From IMG/VR virus record IMGVR_UViG_3300037329_000056, positions 1 to 21,800 of that record: a DNA stretch of 21,800 nt; one strand, written 5' to 3'. Below, piece after piece: positions 67 through 18,798 of this stretch (its first letter is position 1; each line of letters starts with the position of its first letter). The notes beneath the pieces were generated by a model that worked only from the letters and a program-made list of their open reading frames with translations, was not told the origin of the DNA and did no database searches. This DNA comes from a virus. The position numbers and the translations under genes are program-made.

Positions 67-95
67 AGTATAAACGAAAAAAGGGACACTCGCAA
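67..95 (-). promoter_or_regulatory. sigma70-like early promoter overlapping a terminator hairpin (cassette A)
   Basis: On the minus strand, TTGCGA (90-95) and TATACT (67-72) are separated by exactly 17 bp. The -35 lies in the loop and descending arm of the hairpin at 81-106. The stretch 45-87 matches 15057-15099 at 41 of 43 positions, so this is one copy of a repeated regulatory cassette. It would drive the gene starting at 31. I infer promoter activity from spacing and consensus only. Confidence 0.65.
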
Positions 96-106
96 GAGCA
101 TCCCTT
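77..106 (-). terminator. Intrinsic terminator (cassette A)
   Basis: The minus strand reads AAGGGA, two mismatches, CTC, loop TTGC, GAG, two mismatches, TCCCTT and then further Ts. It follows the stop codon of the gene ending at 124, so it would end the transcript that carries the two capsid-targeted proteins. The next promoter is embedded in it. Confidence 0.7.
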
Positions 107-123
107 CATTTTCCTAACTATTT

Positions 124-12704: not shown

Positions 12705-12733
12705 ATTGTAGCAATAAAAAAGGGCTTTTGCAA
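12705..12733 (-). promoter_or_regulatory. sigma70-like promoter overlapping terminator (cassette C)
   Basis: TTGCAA (12728-12733) and TACAAT (12705-12710) are exactly 17 bp apart on the minus strand. The -35 lies in the loop and arm of the hairpin at 12721-12738. It would drive the gene starting at 12665. Confidence 0.65.
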
Positions 12734-12752
12734 GCCCCTGTGTGAAATTAGT
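12712..12752 (-). repeat. 41-bp perfect repeat, copy 1 (regulatory cassette)
   Basis: This stretch is identical over 41 bp to 13752-13792. It covers the stop codon and trailing bases of the upstream gene, the whole terminator hairpin, the -35 and most of the spacer. The -10 lies just outside and differs (TACAAT here, TAAGAT there). Such identity in non-coding DNA points to recent duplication or exchange. Confidence 0.9.
12715..12738 (-). terminator. Intrinsic terminator (cassette C)
   Basis: The minus strand reads GGGCTT, loop GCAA, AAGCCC, then six Ts: a perfect 6-bp stem with a GNRA-type tetraloop. It follows the stop of the gene at 12748 by about 10 nt. Confidence 0.85.
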
Positions 12753-13744: not shown

Positions 13745-13773
13745 ATCTTAACAATAAAAAAGGGCTTTTGCAA
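13745..13773 (-). promoter_or_regulatory. sigma70-like promoter overlapping terminator (cassette D)
   Basis: TTGCAA (13768-13773) and TAAGAT (13745-13750) are exactly 17 bp apart on the minus strand. The -35 is in the loop and arm of the terminator hairpin. It would drive the gene at 13463-13717. Confidence 0.6.
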
Positions 13774-13792
13774 GCCCCTGTGTGAAATTAGT
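13752..13792 (-). repeat. 41-bp perfect repeat, copy 2 (regulatory cassette)
   Basis: Identical over 41 bp to 12712-12752. In both copies the upstream gene's TAA stop lies inside the repeat, followed by the terminator. The two upstream genes encode unrelated proteins, so only the cassette was copied. Confidence 0.9.
13755..13778 (-). terminator. Intrinsic terminator (cassette D)
   Basis: Same hairpin as cassette C: GGGCTT, loop GCAA, AAGCCC, six Ts. It would end the transcript carrying the small capsid-targeted gene at 13788-13976. Confidence 0.85.
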
Positions 13793-15078: not shown

Positions 15079-15107
15079 AGTATAAACGAAAAAAGGGACT
15101 CTTGCAA
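15079..15107 (-). promoter_or_regulatory. sigma70-like promoter overlapping terminator (cassette B)
   Basis: TTGCAA (15102-15107) and TATACT (15079-15084) are exactly 17 bp apart. The region 15057-15099 matches 45-87 at 41 of 43 positions, including leader bases after the -10. It would drive the gene at 14770-15042. Confidence 0.7.
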
Positions 15108-15116
15108 GCCCCTTTT
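15087..15116 (-). terminator. Intrinsic terminator (cassette B)
   Basis: The minus strand reads AAAAGGG, an inner CTTGCAAG mini-hairpin, CCCTTTT and then more Ts and CG. It lies just after the stop of the gene at 15122. Confidence 0.75.
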
Positions 15117-15121
15117 CGGTT

Positions 15122-15466
15122 TTACTTCAAGTAAGCTGGCCCTGTCCATGAGCCGCTGAATACACCAGTTAAGACGTTACCTCTTGCAGAGTTTCTAGCC
15201 GGTGCAGCAAATCCAGCCGCCTTTAGTATGTCGCCAAACTTAAAAGTTCTATCTTCGTTTGAATTCACAACAAATGCTTTAACTGAAGAATTGGCAATGA
15301 TTTTAATGTACTTTTTGCCGATACGAACAGAAAAAGAATTCTTGAAGTTTTCAATATTTTCTTTTGCACGTTCTTCGCCAACTGAACGGATTGTGTATGA
15401 CGCATAATCAGAAACCATGAAATCAATGTAAGCGGCAACGCCTGAATCAATATCTGTGTAGGTCAT
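15122..15466 (-). CDS. Conserved phage hypothetical (KAAGFAAPARNSARGNV type)
   Basis: The 114-residue product has a helical start and then IGKKYIKIIANSSVKAFVV, FKFGDILKAAGFAAPARN-SARGNVL and SWTGPAYLK. The GDILKAA-x-x-APA-x-N-x-ARG core recurs in hypothetical proteins of marine phages. The strand before it (KYIKI..SVKAFVV) is also typical. Function unknown. ATG 15466 has AGGAG upstream and a candidate promoter lies at 15510-15538. Confidence 0.65.
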   Translation of the reverse strand: MTYTDIDSGVAAYIDFMVSDYASYTIRSVGEERAKENIENFKNSFSVRIGKKYIKIIANSSVKAFVVNSNEDRTFKFGDILKAAGFAAPARNSARGNVLTGVFSGSWTGPAYLK

Positions 15467-16707: not shown

Positions 16708-16747
16708 TTTATAAACAAGAAAAAAAGGGACTCTTTCAAGCCCCCTT
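16708..16747 (-). terminator. Terminator with decayed promoter (cassette E)
   Basis: The minus strand has AAAAGGGGGCTTGAAAGAGT then CCC and seven Ts, closely like cassette B. TTGAAA (16734-16739) matches the -35 position, but extra bases put TATAAA (16708-16713) 20 bp away. An overlapping TTTATA at 18 bp is also possible. The terminator looks intact and the promoter looks weak. It separates the paralog pair from the SHMT gene. Confidence 0.65.
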
Positions 16748-16777
16748 TTCATTTTTATTGATTATTTATGTTTCCCA

Positions 16778-16945
16778 CTACCATTCAGTACCTCGAATTT
16801 CTAAATAACCATCAATCTGTTCGTACCACTCTTCCAGTGTATTATCTTCCTCATAATAGTCAGTCGTTTCTAATCCTTTCTTATAATGATCCTCAAAGTC
16901 TTGCAAATCCTGCAAAACAATTTTTTTGAATTCATCTATTTTCAT
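16778..16945 (-). CDS. Small acidic protein, tandem paralog 1
   Basis: A 55-codon gene from ATG 16945 to TAG at 16778 encodes MKIDEFKKIVLQDLQDFEDHYKK with KKGLETTDYYEEDNTLEEW after it. It matches the neighbour at 16967-17146 along most of its length (DEFKK, DFE-x-x-YKKGLE-TD-Y). The 23 bases before each ATG are also the same (AAAAAGGAATTTGATT), so gene and ribosome site were duplicated together. The product is acidic, helical and aromatic at its end. Function unknown. Confidence 0.75.
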   Translation of the reverse strand: MKIDEFKKIVLQDLQDFEDHYKKGLETTDYYEEDNTLEEWYEQIDGYLEIRGTEW

Positions 16946-16966
16946 AATCAAATTCCTTTTTAATCA

Positions 16967-17146
16967 TTAGTATTCTTGTGTTCTGTATATGTATTTTAGT
17001 TCTGAAAAAGCCTCAAATTGCTCTTGCCAATCATGCAATGAATTTCTTTGTCGATAATGATCAGTTTCTTCTAATCCTTTTTTATAACTAATCTCAAAAT
17101 CTTCTACATCTTTCAACAAAACTTTTTTGAATTCATCTAAATTCAT
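16967..17146 (-). CDS. Small protein, tandem paralog 2
   Basis: From the ATG at 17146 (AAGGA upstream) the product has 59 residues, beginning MNLDEFKKVLLKDVEDFE. It is the paralog of the downstream gene at 16778-16945, but more basic in its second half (HYRQRNSLHDWQEQFEAF). A TTG two codons earlier is the only reason a longer frame is seen. It lies 14 nt after the DsbA-like gene, so is probably cotranscribed with it. Confidence 0.75.
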   Translation of the reverse strand: MNLDEFKKVLLKDVEDFEISYKKGLEETDHYRQRNSLHDWQEQFEAFSELKYIYRTQEY

Positions 17147-17160
17147 AATCAAATTCCTTT

Positions 17161-17475
17161 TTAATCATCAAATTCTTCGAAGGTTTTCTCTTCTGAATTG
17201 TTTTTCATTTTGACAATGGTTTCATAAAAGGCTTCGTACTCTTCGAACTCTTTCACAGTTTTGTCAAATTTATCTTCATGAAAATCTTTCAAAGTCTTTG
17301 AAATCCACTTTGGATCAATTTCATAGGTTTCTTTAATGAACTTCTTTGTTTCCTTAATGTAATCTGATTCGCCTTTCATACGAGTCAGTGAATTAGACAT
17401 CTGCTCGATAGCTGCGAAAATTTCTTTGCGATGCTCTTCTGAGCTAGGGATGTTAATTTCAATTTGATCAGACAT
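17161..17475 (-). CDS. dsbA: DsbA-like double-stranded DNA-binding protein (late transcription)
   Basis: The 104-residue product resembles T4-type DsbA. The pattern IKETKKFIKETYEIDPKWIS followed by LKDFHEDKFD and EEYEAFYETIV aligns with the T4 segment ending in YHKDN...EEVVELYDTV. The N-terminal EINIPSSEEHRKEIFAAIEQ is as I recall from DsbA of other T4-like phages. T4 DsbA (89 residues) binds dsDNA near late promoters. In T4 it adjoins gene 33, but here it lies about 9 kb upstream. ATG 17475 has AAAGGAAAT upstream. A copy of its first four codons persists at 17729-17740. Moderately sure. Confidence 0.65.
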   Translation of the reverse strand: MSDQIEINIPSSEEHRKEIFAAIEQMSNSLTRMKGESDYIKETKKFIKETYEIDPKWISKTLKDFHEDKFDKTVKEFEEYEAFYETIVKMKNNSEEKTFEEFDD

Positions 17476-17538
17476 TCATATTTCCTTTATAGATTAAAAA
17501 GTTGATCTTCAACTTTTTGGTCAGAATTGACCACCCGC
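17463..17538 (-). repeat. Direct repeat, downstream copy
   Basis: Bases 17463-17516 match 17728-17781 at 53 of 54 positions. A further 14-bp identity (aattgaccacccgc, 17525-17538) matches 17791-17804. It spans the end of the 71-residue gene, the intergenic leader and the first codons of the DsbA-like gene. Confidence 0.9.
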
Positions 17539-17702
17539 ATTTTTTCATGAATGAAATTTATCTCTTTTTTAATCTTTTCATTCAATTCTGAAAATTCTTC
17601 ATGTGTTTTTTCGTTTTCTGCTATTTTTTCTATTACAGAGTGAATGCTTTTAAAAGCTTCTTCAAGAGGTTTGTTTTCGATCCAAACTGAAAGTTCTTTC
17701 AT
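17487..17702 (-). CDS. Short protein derived from the second module of the neighbouring large gene
   Basis: The 71-residue product starts MKELSVWIENKPLEEAF, matching MQEFSEWVDNKLEESS (residues 151-166) of the 348-residue neighbour, and ends KVEDQLFNL, identical to that neighbour's last nine residues. The helical middle (FKSIHSVIEKIAENEKTHEEF) has no match. Near the end the DNA encoding GWSIL in the large gene is present but read in another frame, through one missing base. So this is an internally replaced and frameshifted paralog. It may still be made: the ATG at 17702 overlaps the stop of the relic reading frame (ATGA). Function unknown. Confidence 0.6.
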   Translation of the reverse strand: MKELSVWIENKPLEEAFKSIHSVIEKIAENEKTHEEFSELNEKIKKEINFIHEKMRVVNSDQKVEDQLFNL

Positions 17703-17740
17703 AACAATTCCTCTTTTGATTGTGTCGTTTGATCAGACAT
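17699..17740 (-). pseudogene. 13-codon relic fusing the dsbA start to the large-gene interior
   Basis: ATG 17740 opens MSDQTTQSKEELL and stops at 17699. The first four codons and the ribosome site copy the DsbA-like gene. From the fifth codon the bases match the DNA of the large gene just before its internal ATG at 18348 (TTQSKEE against MTQLNEG), with two extra bases. It marks the junction of an old deletion. It could act only as a leader peptide coupled to the 71-residue gene. Confidence 0.6.
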
Positions 17741-17804
17741 TCATATTTCCCTTATAGATTAAAAAGTTGATCTTCAACTTTGTCTGCCAAAATTGACCAC
17801 CCGC
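17728..17804 (-). repeat. Direct repeat, upstream copy
   Basis: Partner of 17463-17538. Here it spans the end of the 348-residue gene, the leader and the relic dsbA start. Confidence 0.9.
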
Positions 17805-18798
17805 GTTTTCCGTTTACAGTAGAAGGTAGTTTTACTTCTTCAGACTCAAAAGCAAATTCACGCCCGCCAATCCTTGAAAGAAACTCACCAGCTACCTTAC
17901 CATATCTAGAATTTCCTACAACCTCCCGATTACCCAGTGCTGGAAAAGAATCGTCGCGTTTTGATGTTCCGATCAAGTAAGCGCCTTTGCCGCCTTGTGG
18001 AACAATCAACACAGAGTCTTGATCAAAGCGTGTTCCTAGAGCAACCAGATCACGTTCTAGCTTACCACCATCATTCATATCAACTACAAAGAACGATGGT
18101 TCACCGACTTCTCTGGCGTTCTCAGAGCCGAAGTTTTCAATGTAGTTACCTTGGACAGATGTTATAGAATATCCCTGCTTTGTCAAGTAAGATTTAATTT
18201 CGCGGTTATTCTGCTTGTTCTGTGATTTTTCGTTTTCATCACGATAACCAGAAATCGCACCAGCTTGATGATCTTGAACATGCCGCCAGATACGTGATAA
18301 TGAACTCTCTTCTAGCTTGTTGTCAACCCATTCTGAAAATTCTTGCATAACTCCCTCATTTAATTGTGTCATTTGGGTTAATGATTCTTTCAGGTTGTGC
18401 ATGGTTTCAAAAACTTGTTCAAGACCTTGTGGCAAAATGCTGATATTGAATAGCTTCTTACCTGTCATGTATAAAACCGCTGTTGTTGTTCCGCCACCGG
18501 GCAAAAGAAAAAGTGGTGCTATCAAAGCAAATTTAGCCACATCCCCTAATTGTCTAAGAGCCCGTTTAACATCTTCATCTGTAATCGTTTTTTCTTTCTT
18601 TAAAATTTCTTTCAACTTCTTAAAGAAAGTTTCCAACATGAATATAGTCTCTTTTCGTTCAAAGTCAAGACCAGATAGCAATTTTTTTATTTTTATAACA
18701 GTGTTTGCTGACATTGATTTTGCTTTGTCCATGATAGCAGCTTTAATACCCGCCTCATCTAAAATTTCTTGTTGATAAAAGTCATCAAAAGATTGCAT
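17752..18798 (-). CDS. Two-module protein with capsid-targeting-like N terminus (candidate head or ejected protein)
   Basis: The 348-residue product begins MQSFDDFYQQEILDEAG, similar in pattern to T4 capsid-targeting sequences with a possible cut after LDE (residue 15). Module 1 (about 20-130) is helical with KEKTITDEDVKRALRQLG and a hydrophobic APLFLLPGGGTTTAVLYMTG segment, like LETM1-like stretches in other phage proteins. Module 2 starts at Met151 (MQEFSEWVDN), itself targeting-like. It runs through SSLSRIWRHVQDHQAGAISG, EPSFFVVDMND and DSVLIVPQGGKGAYLIG, resembling a DUF3293-like fold. Met151 has its own GAGGGAG site, so module 2 may also be made alone. Late box at 18834. AAAGGA precedes ATG 18798. 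Confidence 0.75.
   Translation of the reverse strand: MQSFDDFYQQEILDEAGIKAAIMDKAKSMSANTVIKIKKLLSGLDFERKETIFMLETFFKKLKEILKKEKTITDEDVKRALRQLGDVAKFALIAPLFLLPGGGTTTAVLYMTGKKLFNISILPQGLEQVFETMHNLKESLTQMTQLNEGVMQEFSEWVDNKLEESSLSRIWRHVQDHQAGAISGYRDENEKSQNKQNNREIKSYLTKQGYSITSVQGNYIENFGSENAREVGEPSFFVVDMNDGGKLERDLVALGTRFDQDSVLIVPQGGKGAYLIGTSKRDDSFPALGNREVVGNSRYGKVAGEFLSRIGGREFAFESEEVKLPSTVNGKRGWSILADKVEDQLFNL

Follow-up and report, generated by a model that had tools for sequence, protein, structure and literature searches.

The locus described here raises the question of how a 71-codon reading frame (ORF71) came to lie between a large two-module gene and dsbA, and whether this frame is a gene. It belongs to IMG/VR virus record IMGVR_UViG_3300037329_000056, of which positions 1-21,800 were analysed; this 21.8-kb fragment is referred to as the window. 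Profile matches revealed T4-like genes, including a helicase (phrog_19), DsbA (PF11126) and serine hydroxymethyltransferase (PF00464), and a UvsX-like recombinase was recognised by eye. The minus strand carries, in this order, helicase, large gene, ORF71 and dsbA (Table 1); the match of DsbA to PF11126 reached 30.3 bits, above the curated cut-off of 25. Just downstream of dsbA, a gene of about 60 codons forms a diverged tandem pair (16799-16967 and 17000-17168, 75%); in the related viral contig L008 this pair is absent between dsbA and the hydroxymethyltransferase gene. A terminator-like hairpin of the AAAAAAGGGACTCTTGCAAGCCCCTTTT type was found five times near small genes of the window (77-111, 12715-12749, 13755-13789, 15089-15123 and 16721-16755).

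Table 1. Features of the large gene–dsbA locus, with positions in the window
Feature	Position	Strand	Content or evidence
Large two-module gene, 348 aa	17752..18798	-	PF23780, E=1.3e-13; orthologues in 6 contigs, 91-92% aa
Large-gene N-module			aa 1-150
Large-gene C-module			aa 181-283; S-adenosylmethionine (SAM) lyase domain
Large-gene nt 371-504	18295..18428	-	Final N-module helix and linker with internal start MQEFSEWVDNKLEE^SSLSR
Repeat copy 1	17728..17804	-	Large-gene tail, stop, spacer, dsbA codons 1-4
265-nt insertion	17517..17781	-	Relative to single-copy relatives; pairwise alignment with L004, L007 and L008
13-codon frame	17699..17740	-	Truncated dsbA start fused to large-gene linker
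ORF71, 71 codons	17487..17702	-	Segments A, B and C
ORF71 segment A			Codons 1-11; linker
ORF71 segment B			Codons about 12-52; probable source large-gene nt about 371-504 (18295..18428)
ORF71 segment C			Large-gene tail
Repeat copy 2	17463..17538	-	ORF71 end, spacer, native dsbA start
dsbA, 104 aa	17161..17475	-	T4 DsbA family; PF11126, E=5e-7; phrog_639, E=8e-19

An earlier note on this DNA had described the order as large gene, dsbA start fused to large-gene interior, short paralog of the large-gene tail and then dsbA, with repeats at 17463-17538 and 17728-17804 sharing a 53/54 core. We found every one of these coordinates to be correct, and the repeat and alignment data confirmed the order. 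The direct repeats at 17463-17516 and 17728-17781 are identical at 53 of 54 positions, with 30 and 23 nt as their longest common exact runs; if a 1-nt gap is allowed, the similarity continues leftwards on the minus strand, as far as about 17538 and 17804. They hold the last large-gene codons (VEDQLFNL and the stop), an 11-nt spacer with a Shine-Dalgarno sequence and dsbA codons 1-4. Copy 2 is the true dsbA start; copy 1, with the real large-gene stop inside it, breaks off after dsbA codon 4 and has a private base (AAGGG) that is absent from the relatives. Past codon 4 the sequence aligned to large-gene nt 429-482 (44/54 bases plus a 2-nt gap), a match that none of 500 dinucleotide shuffles equalled, bearing out the proposal that the scar links dsbA codon 4 to a large-gene position close to the internal start (ATG at 18348, GAGGGAGTTATG). 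Judged by eye, both partners of this dsbA/linker join, the first of the joins, carry CAAAT (CAAA(T) microhomology), the second join shows ACAA(G/A) and the third is blurred. The frame that begins at the truncated dsbA start ends in a TGA overlapping the ATG of ORF71 as ATGA (17702-17699), and both short frames at the scar are open, as had been claimed. It is a 2-nt insertion that produces this 13-codon frame and its TGA; with those two bases removed, the dsbA head would read in frame with the linker.

When viral contigs were searched with the large gene and dsbA as queries, relatives came from 8 of 43 and 11 of 29 pattern stretches, and with alignments from 10 of 140 and 12 of 111. The N-module was present in 11 contigs. 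In six contigs (L003-L008) the large gene runs directly into dsbA; in L015 a different C-module adjoins dsbA, and L018 has a truncated dsbA head ahead of its real dsbA. Two other genes separate the large gene from dsbA in L010, the coordinates of L009 imply the same spacing, and L022 ends within the large gene. A tail-motif search matched exactly L003-L008, with one copy in each. The single-copy ancestor, which the earlier note had proposed to look for among relatives, therefore exists: all six repeat-bearing IMG/VR contigs are single-copy, with the large gene followed by dsbA. Alignment of the window with L004, L007 and L008 showed one clean insertion with flanks 87-89% identical. No second contig with the insert was found among the viral contigs searched. 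This result, together with the origin of the window as an IMG/VR fragment, would fit an artefact in which the loci of two strains were merged at the 54-nt repeat during metagenome assembly. We regard such a chimera as very improbable, because the repeat copies differ, copy 1 having a base of its own, and because merging two intact strains would not give segments A and B of ORF71, which are diverged and themselves rearranged.

The two genes between the large gene and dsbA in L010 (5028-5549 and 5591-6094) have leader-like starts (MIDFRYFIIES and MKNFKSYLKEA) and no Pfam match. By eye, the helicase gene of L010 (854-3959) and L018 (23-986) appears to be broken up by a fractured intein, an endonuclease-like ORF separating the two halves; the L018 locus includes the split helicase only in part, and the helicase of the window is unsplit. 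Similar split inteins are known.

Analysis of the insert indicated that it derives from the neighbouring gene, clearly for segments A and C and at the DNA level only for segment B. The end of ORF71 is the parent tail, where a 1-nt deletion restores the parent frame. With gap-tolerant scoring, the middle of ORF71 matched large-gene nt 371-504, again the final N-module helix and linker, and none of 400 codon shuffles or 400 dinucleotide shuffles was as good. The large genes of L008, L010, L015, L018 and L022 pick the same region for the middle (at most 1/400 shuffles as good in each case), and among 283 window segments on both strands nt 371-504 came top with a score of 201, the rest having a mean of 89 (sd 23) and the next 151. 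Segment B matches its source at 67 of 105 bases (about 64%), in two codon-aligned blocks; its helix-like composition is also found in other genes, the next best scores being about 150. The protein alignment pairs LEEAFKSIHSVIEKIAE-NEKTHEEFSE of ORF71 with LEQVFETMHNLKESLTQ..NEGVMQEFSE of the large gene, and at this level 8 of 1000 shuffles were as good for the whole of ORF71 and 222 of 1000, not significant, for the middle alone. These data suggest that the middle very probably comes from the large gene as a second, diverged piece, and that the insert is made of the large-gene 3′ half and the dsbA head, rearranged by about three joins. Hence the description of the 71-codon frame as a paralog of the large gene holds at both ends and probably in the middle. 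A source of the middle in the helicase gene (39 nt, E=1e-3) was set aside on the higher score of the large gene (201 versus 151).

Relatives of ORF71 were found neither in viral contigs, annotated phages and the records of 12 relatives nor in genome contigs, and a DNA search of phage records with the region gave no match. The one match of a scar-pattern search, in viral contig L027, is an unrelated gene with the start MSDQMTQEIKD. The finding that was to tell against the earlier note, a long, conserved 71-residue gene in relatives with no relation to the large gene, was looked for and not found. A 71-codon frame between 54-nt repeats and without database relatives might in principle stem from the insertion of an unrelated small gene at this site, the repeat being its target-site duplication; this is hardly credible, as large-gene sequence makes up both ends of ORF71 and the bases upstream of it, and the middle, too, matches the large gene. 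The predicted structure of ORF71 alone (three helices, pLDDT 68) says little.

As the origin of the insert, we consider a microhomology-mediated partial duplication of the large-gene 3′ half likely. Microhomology-mediated recombination in a T4-like phage would have copied this 3′ half together with the tail and the first four dsbA codons. A tandem duplication with its endpoints in the CAAAT at dsbA codon 4 and at large-gene nt about 426 would yield the observed order directly. Later short joins in the second copy would have deleted the greater part of the SAM-lyase domain and duplicated the linker region, with ORF71 needing at least two more joins, from large-gene nt about 486 to about 371 and from about 504-530 to about 990. 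The product would be a 265-nt insert with a 71-codon frame that keeps the internal start of the parent, a Shine-Dalgarno sequence and the in-frame parent C-terminus. We infer this route through microhomology and this order of joins from the present arrangement. Tandem duplication followed by deletion, as first proposed, was thus right in kind; the copying of a full large-gene/dsbA unit with a single deletion was not supported in that form, and several joins probably took place within the 3′ half. Segmental amplifications in T4 arise by recombination at short homologies, of 2-10 bp in the earlier studies that PMC9391042 reports. The present case would resemble the T4 segmental tandem amplifications of dmd-tifA, as that source describes them (PMC9391042), in being a local tandem duplication in a T4-like phage with putative short homology at its ends. 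It differs in the age of the copy, in its internal rearrangement and reduced length, and in encoding another product.

Comparison of the relatives revealed further exchange at the same place. L015 and L008 are 90-98% identical in the N-module, 54-78% in most of the C-module and up to 95-97% in dsbA, whereas L018 and L015 share 72-88% in the N-module and 93-95% in the C-module. Two interchangeable C-module types are found behind nearly the same N-module (L015:2964-3995, L018:1027-2058 and L022:4001-4639 versus L008:4001-5047), and the swap is clean, at the linker and the dsbA start. In L018 an independent scar (2059-2161) consists of a 16-codon truncated dsbA start and a stop ahead of the real dsbA; the head (MSYEQIEINNPSSEDH and stop) resembles the dsbA start of L015 and lies in the same place as the scar of the window. 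From the two scars, imprecise exchange seems to have occurred at this spot at least twice, which makes a displaced cassette a serious rival to duplication within the genome. Under this alternative, a C-terminal module and a dsbA head from a co-infecting relative recombined upstream, and the shortened resident was left as ORF71, much like the orphan modules of polymorphic genes. It agrees with the C-module swaps between the lineages of L015, L008 and L018, with the truncated dsbA head retained in L018, and with the linker and tail of ORF71, which are no closer to the large gene of the window than to that of L008. Segments A and B are equally distant from the two large genes and, by eye, ORF71 agrees with L008 and not with the large gene of the window at several differing tail and linker sites, suggesting that its source may have been another phage. 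However, the displacement requires a donor and a short-module resident, neither of which was found, and the C-module of the window is 84-93% identical to that of L008, in line with the flanks (77-92%). We judge it an unlikely origin, and retain partial duplication through microhomology as the likely one.

We then considered the age of the copy. ORF71 and the large gene of the window differ over 46 codons by dN 0.43 and dS 0.51, and ORF71 and the L008 large gene by dN 0.43 and dS 0.49; the values for large-gene orthologues are dN 0.05 and dS 0.39 over the same codons and dN 0.04 and dS 0.63 over the whole gene. Since the dS of ORF71 to its parent is close to that between orthologues, the duplication dates from about the time of the split from the L003-L008 group. 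Either that group lacked the insert from the outset or it lost it, perhaps through recombination between the repeats, which would recreate the exact single-copy state. The 53/54 identity of the repeats gives no date for the event, because the window and its relatives have this stretch in identical or nearly identical form, while the surrounding gene differs by 13%.

These values also bear on whether ORF71 works as a gene. The ATGA coupling and a GAGG at the right distance suggest that it can be translated. The idea of the earlier note that a new gene arose from debris stands in so far as the frame is intact; set against it are the near-neutral substitution and the 7-11% of simulated sequences that stay free of stops without selection. 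ORF71 has a codon score of 0.237 per codon, dsbA 0.269 and 21 spurious plus-strand ORFs at most 0.14, but codon bias was rejected as proof of coding because it is inherited from the coding parent. We lean towards ORF71 being inert debris with a frame still unbroken, a functionless duplication, which is compatible with the duplication origin. The nearly equal dN and dS against the low dN of the orthologues, the inheritance of both frame and bias, and the outcome of the searches for relatives of ORF71 all point in this direction. Segment A, the leader, points the other way with dN 0.23 and dS 0.88, although it comprises 11 codons only and the rest of ORF71 is near neutral, and so does the retention of the Shine-Dalgarno sequence and of the LxE^A leader. 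A working new gene is possible and unproven.

The nature of the parent is relevant to what ORF71 might do. The C-module of the large gene scored 51.5 bits against PF23780, above the curated cut-off of 28, and on this match is a SAM lyase, an assignment that is new here. The catalytic residues of the SAM lyase Svi3-3 are Tyr58, Glu69 and Glu105 (PMC7877911). The C-module belongs to the family of the phage SAM lyases Svi3-3 and T3 SAMase (PMC7877911; PF23780) and, unlike them, is fused behind another module; ORF71 is without the lyase domain. Free-standing relatives start with MNFEQLLES..LSESSLSR (Alishewanella phage), MRFKDYI..FNESSLSR (Campylobacter phage), MQFKQYILGESSLSR (Microcystis phage) and MKSFKQSIDESSLSR (L023). 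A leader-like start directly before the conserved ESSLSR is seen in the window (17752-18348, minus strand), L023:4004-4588, L024:2968-3573, L025:2432-3061 and L026:2507-3793. Among 21 more distant loci, outside the group of the window, 15 start MDMNESSLSR without a leader, 5 have a leader-like extension and 1 has another start, so that ESSLSR belongs to the lyase itself, and LxE^S in the lyase leader is weakened as proof of capsid targeting. It looks as if the internal start of the large gene was once the start of a SAM-lyase gene with its own leader, which was fused behind another leader-bearing gene. Searches of solved structures with the large gene gave chance-like helical matches only, and an AlphaFold model from five sequences was poor (mean pLDDT 39) and was set aside. 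A literature search, in that wording only, found no paper joining 'capsid targeting sequence' with 'S-adenosylmethionine', and we know of no earlier case of a packaged SAM lyase.

According to the sources cited, the internal proteins of T4-like phages are packed in the head and have only an N-terminal capsid-targeting sequence in common (PMC3012670), the prohead protease gp21 cleaves after L/I-x-E (PMC9026906), and packed internal proteins can be injected anti-restriction factors (PMC12373910). A leader pattern drawn after viewing the sequences (M..[FYL]..[FYWI], then [LIV]xE within a few residues) fitted 6 of 188 minus-strand ATG candidates; the controls gave 0 of 37 on the plus strand, 2 of 3829 internal positions and 0.1 per shuffled window. 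The six are an 85-aa ORF, an internal ATG of a 109-aa ORF, a 62-aa ORF, the large gene, its internal start and ORF71. By the site rule given in PMC9026906, L/I-x-E sites lie near the N-terminus in ORF71 (PLEE^A), the large gene (ILDE^A) and the linker (KLEE^S), and the ORF71 leader, MKELSVWIENKPLEE^A, is inherited from the internal start of the large gene. The 85-aa and 109-aa ORFs have weak matches to the internal head protein family phrog_2667 (E=0.007 and 0.014), and searches with ORF71 up to E=1 gave no profile match to it. The internal start, ORF71 and four other starts in the window look like T4 capsid-targeting sequences, a resemblance described here for the first time. As IPI, IPII and IPIII of T-even phages are presented in PMC3012670, PMC9026906 and PMC12373910, they share with ORF71, the large gene and its internal start the hydrophobic-spaced leader with L/I-x-E, and the leader is kept while the cargo differs; ORF71 differs from them in being known from sequence alone and in having no phrog_2667 match. 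The retained leader, ending L-E-E^A, suggests that ORF71 may be a small head-packaged protein, a reading we put forward only tentatively. Equally doubtful is the fuller proposal that it is a newly born internal head protein, injected, that arose when the leader of the SAM-lyase module was duplicated and its cargo rearranged.

Should ORF71 be inert, the locus would amount to an ordinary recombination scar. If it is a packaged protein, the region between the large gene and dsbA would be a workshop in which the leader stays fixed and the packaged anti-defence cargo behind it is exchanged. It would then offer a datable intermediate for the origin of the diverse packaged proteins of T4-like phages, with the single-copy ancestor, the joins and a possible leader all visible. 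The large gene leads to a testable suggestion, that some T4-like phages may carry in the head a SAM-destroying enzyme, which would act on host methylation as the DNA enters.
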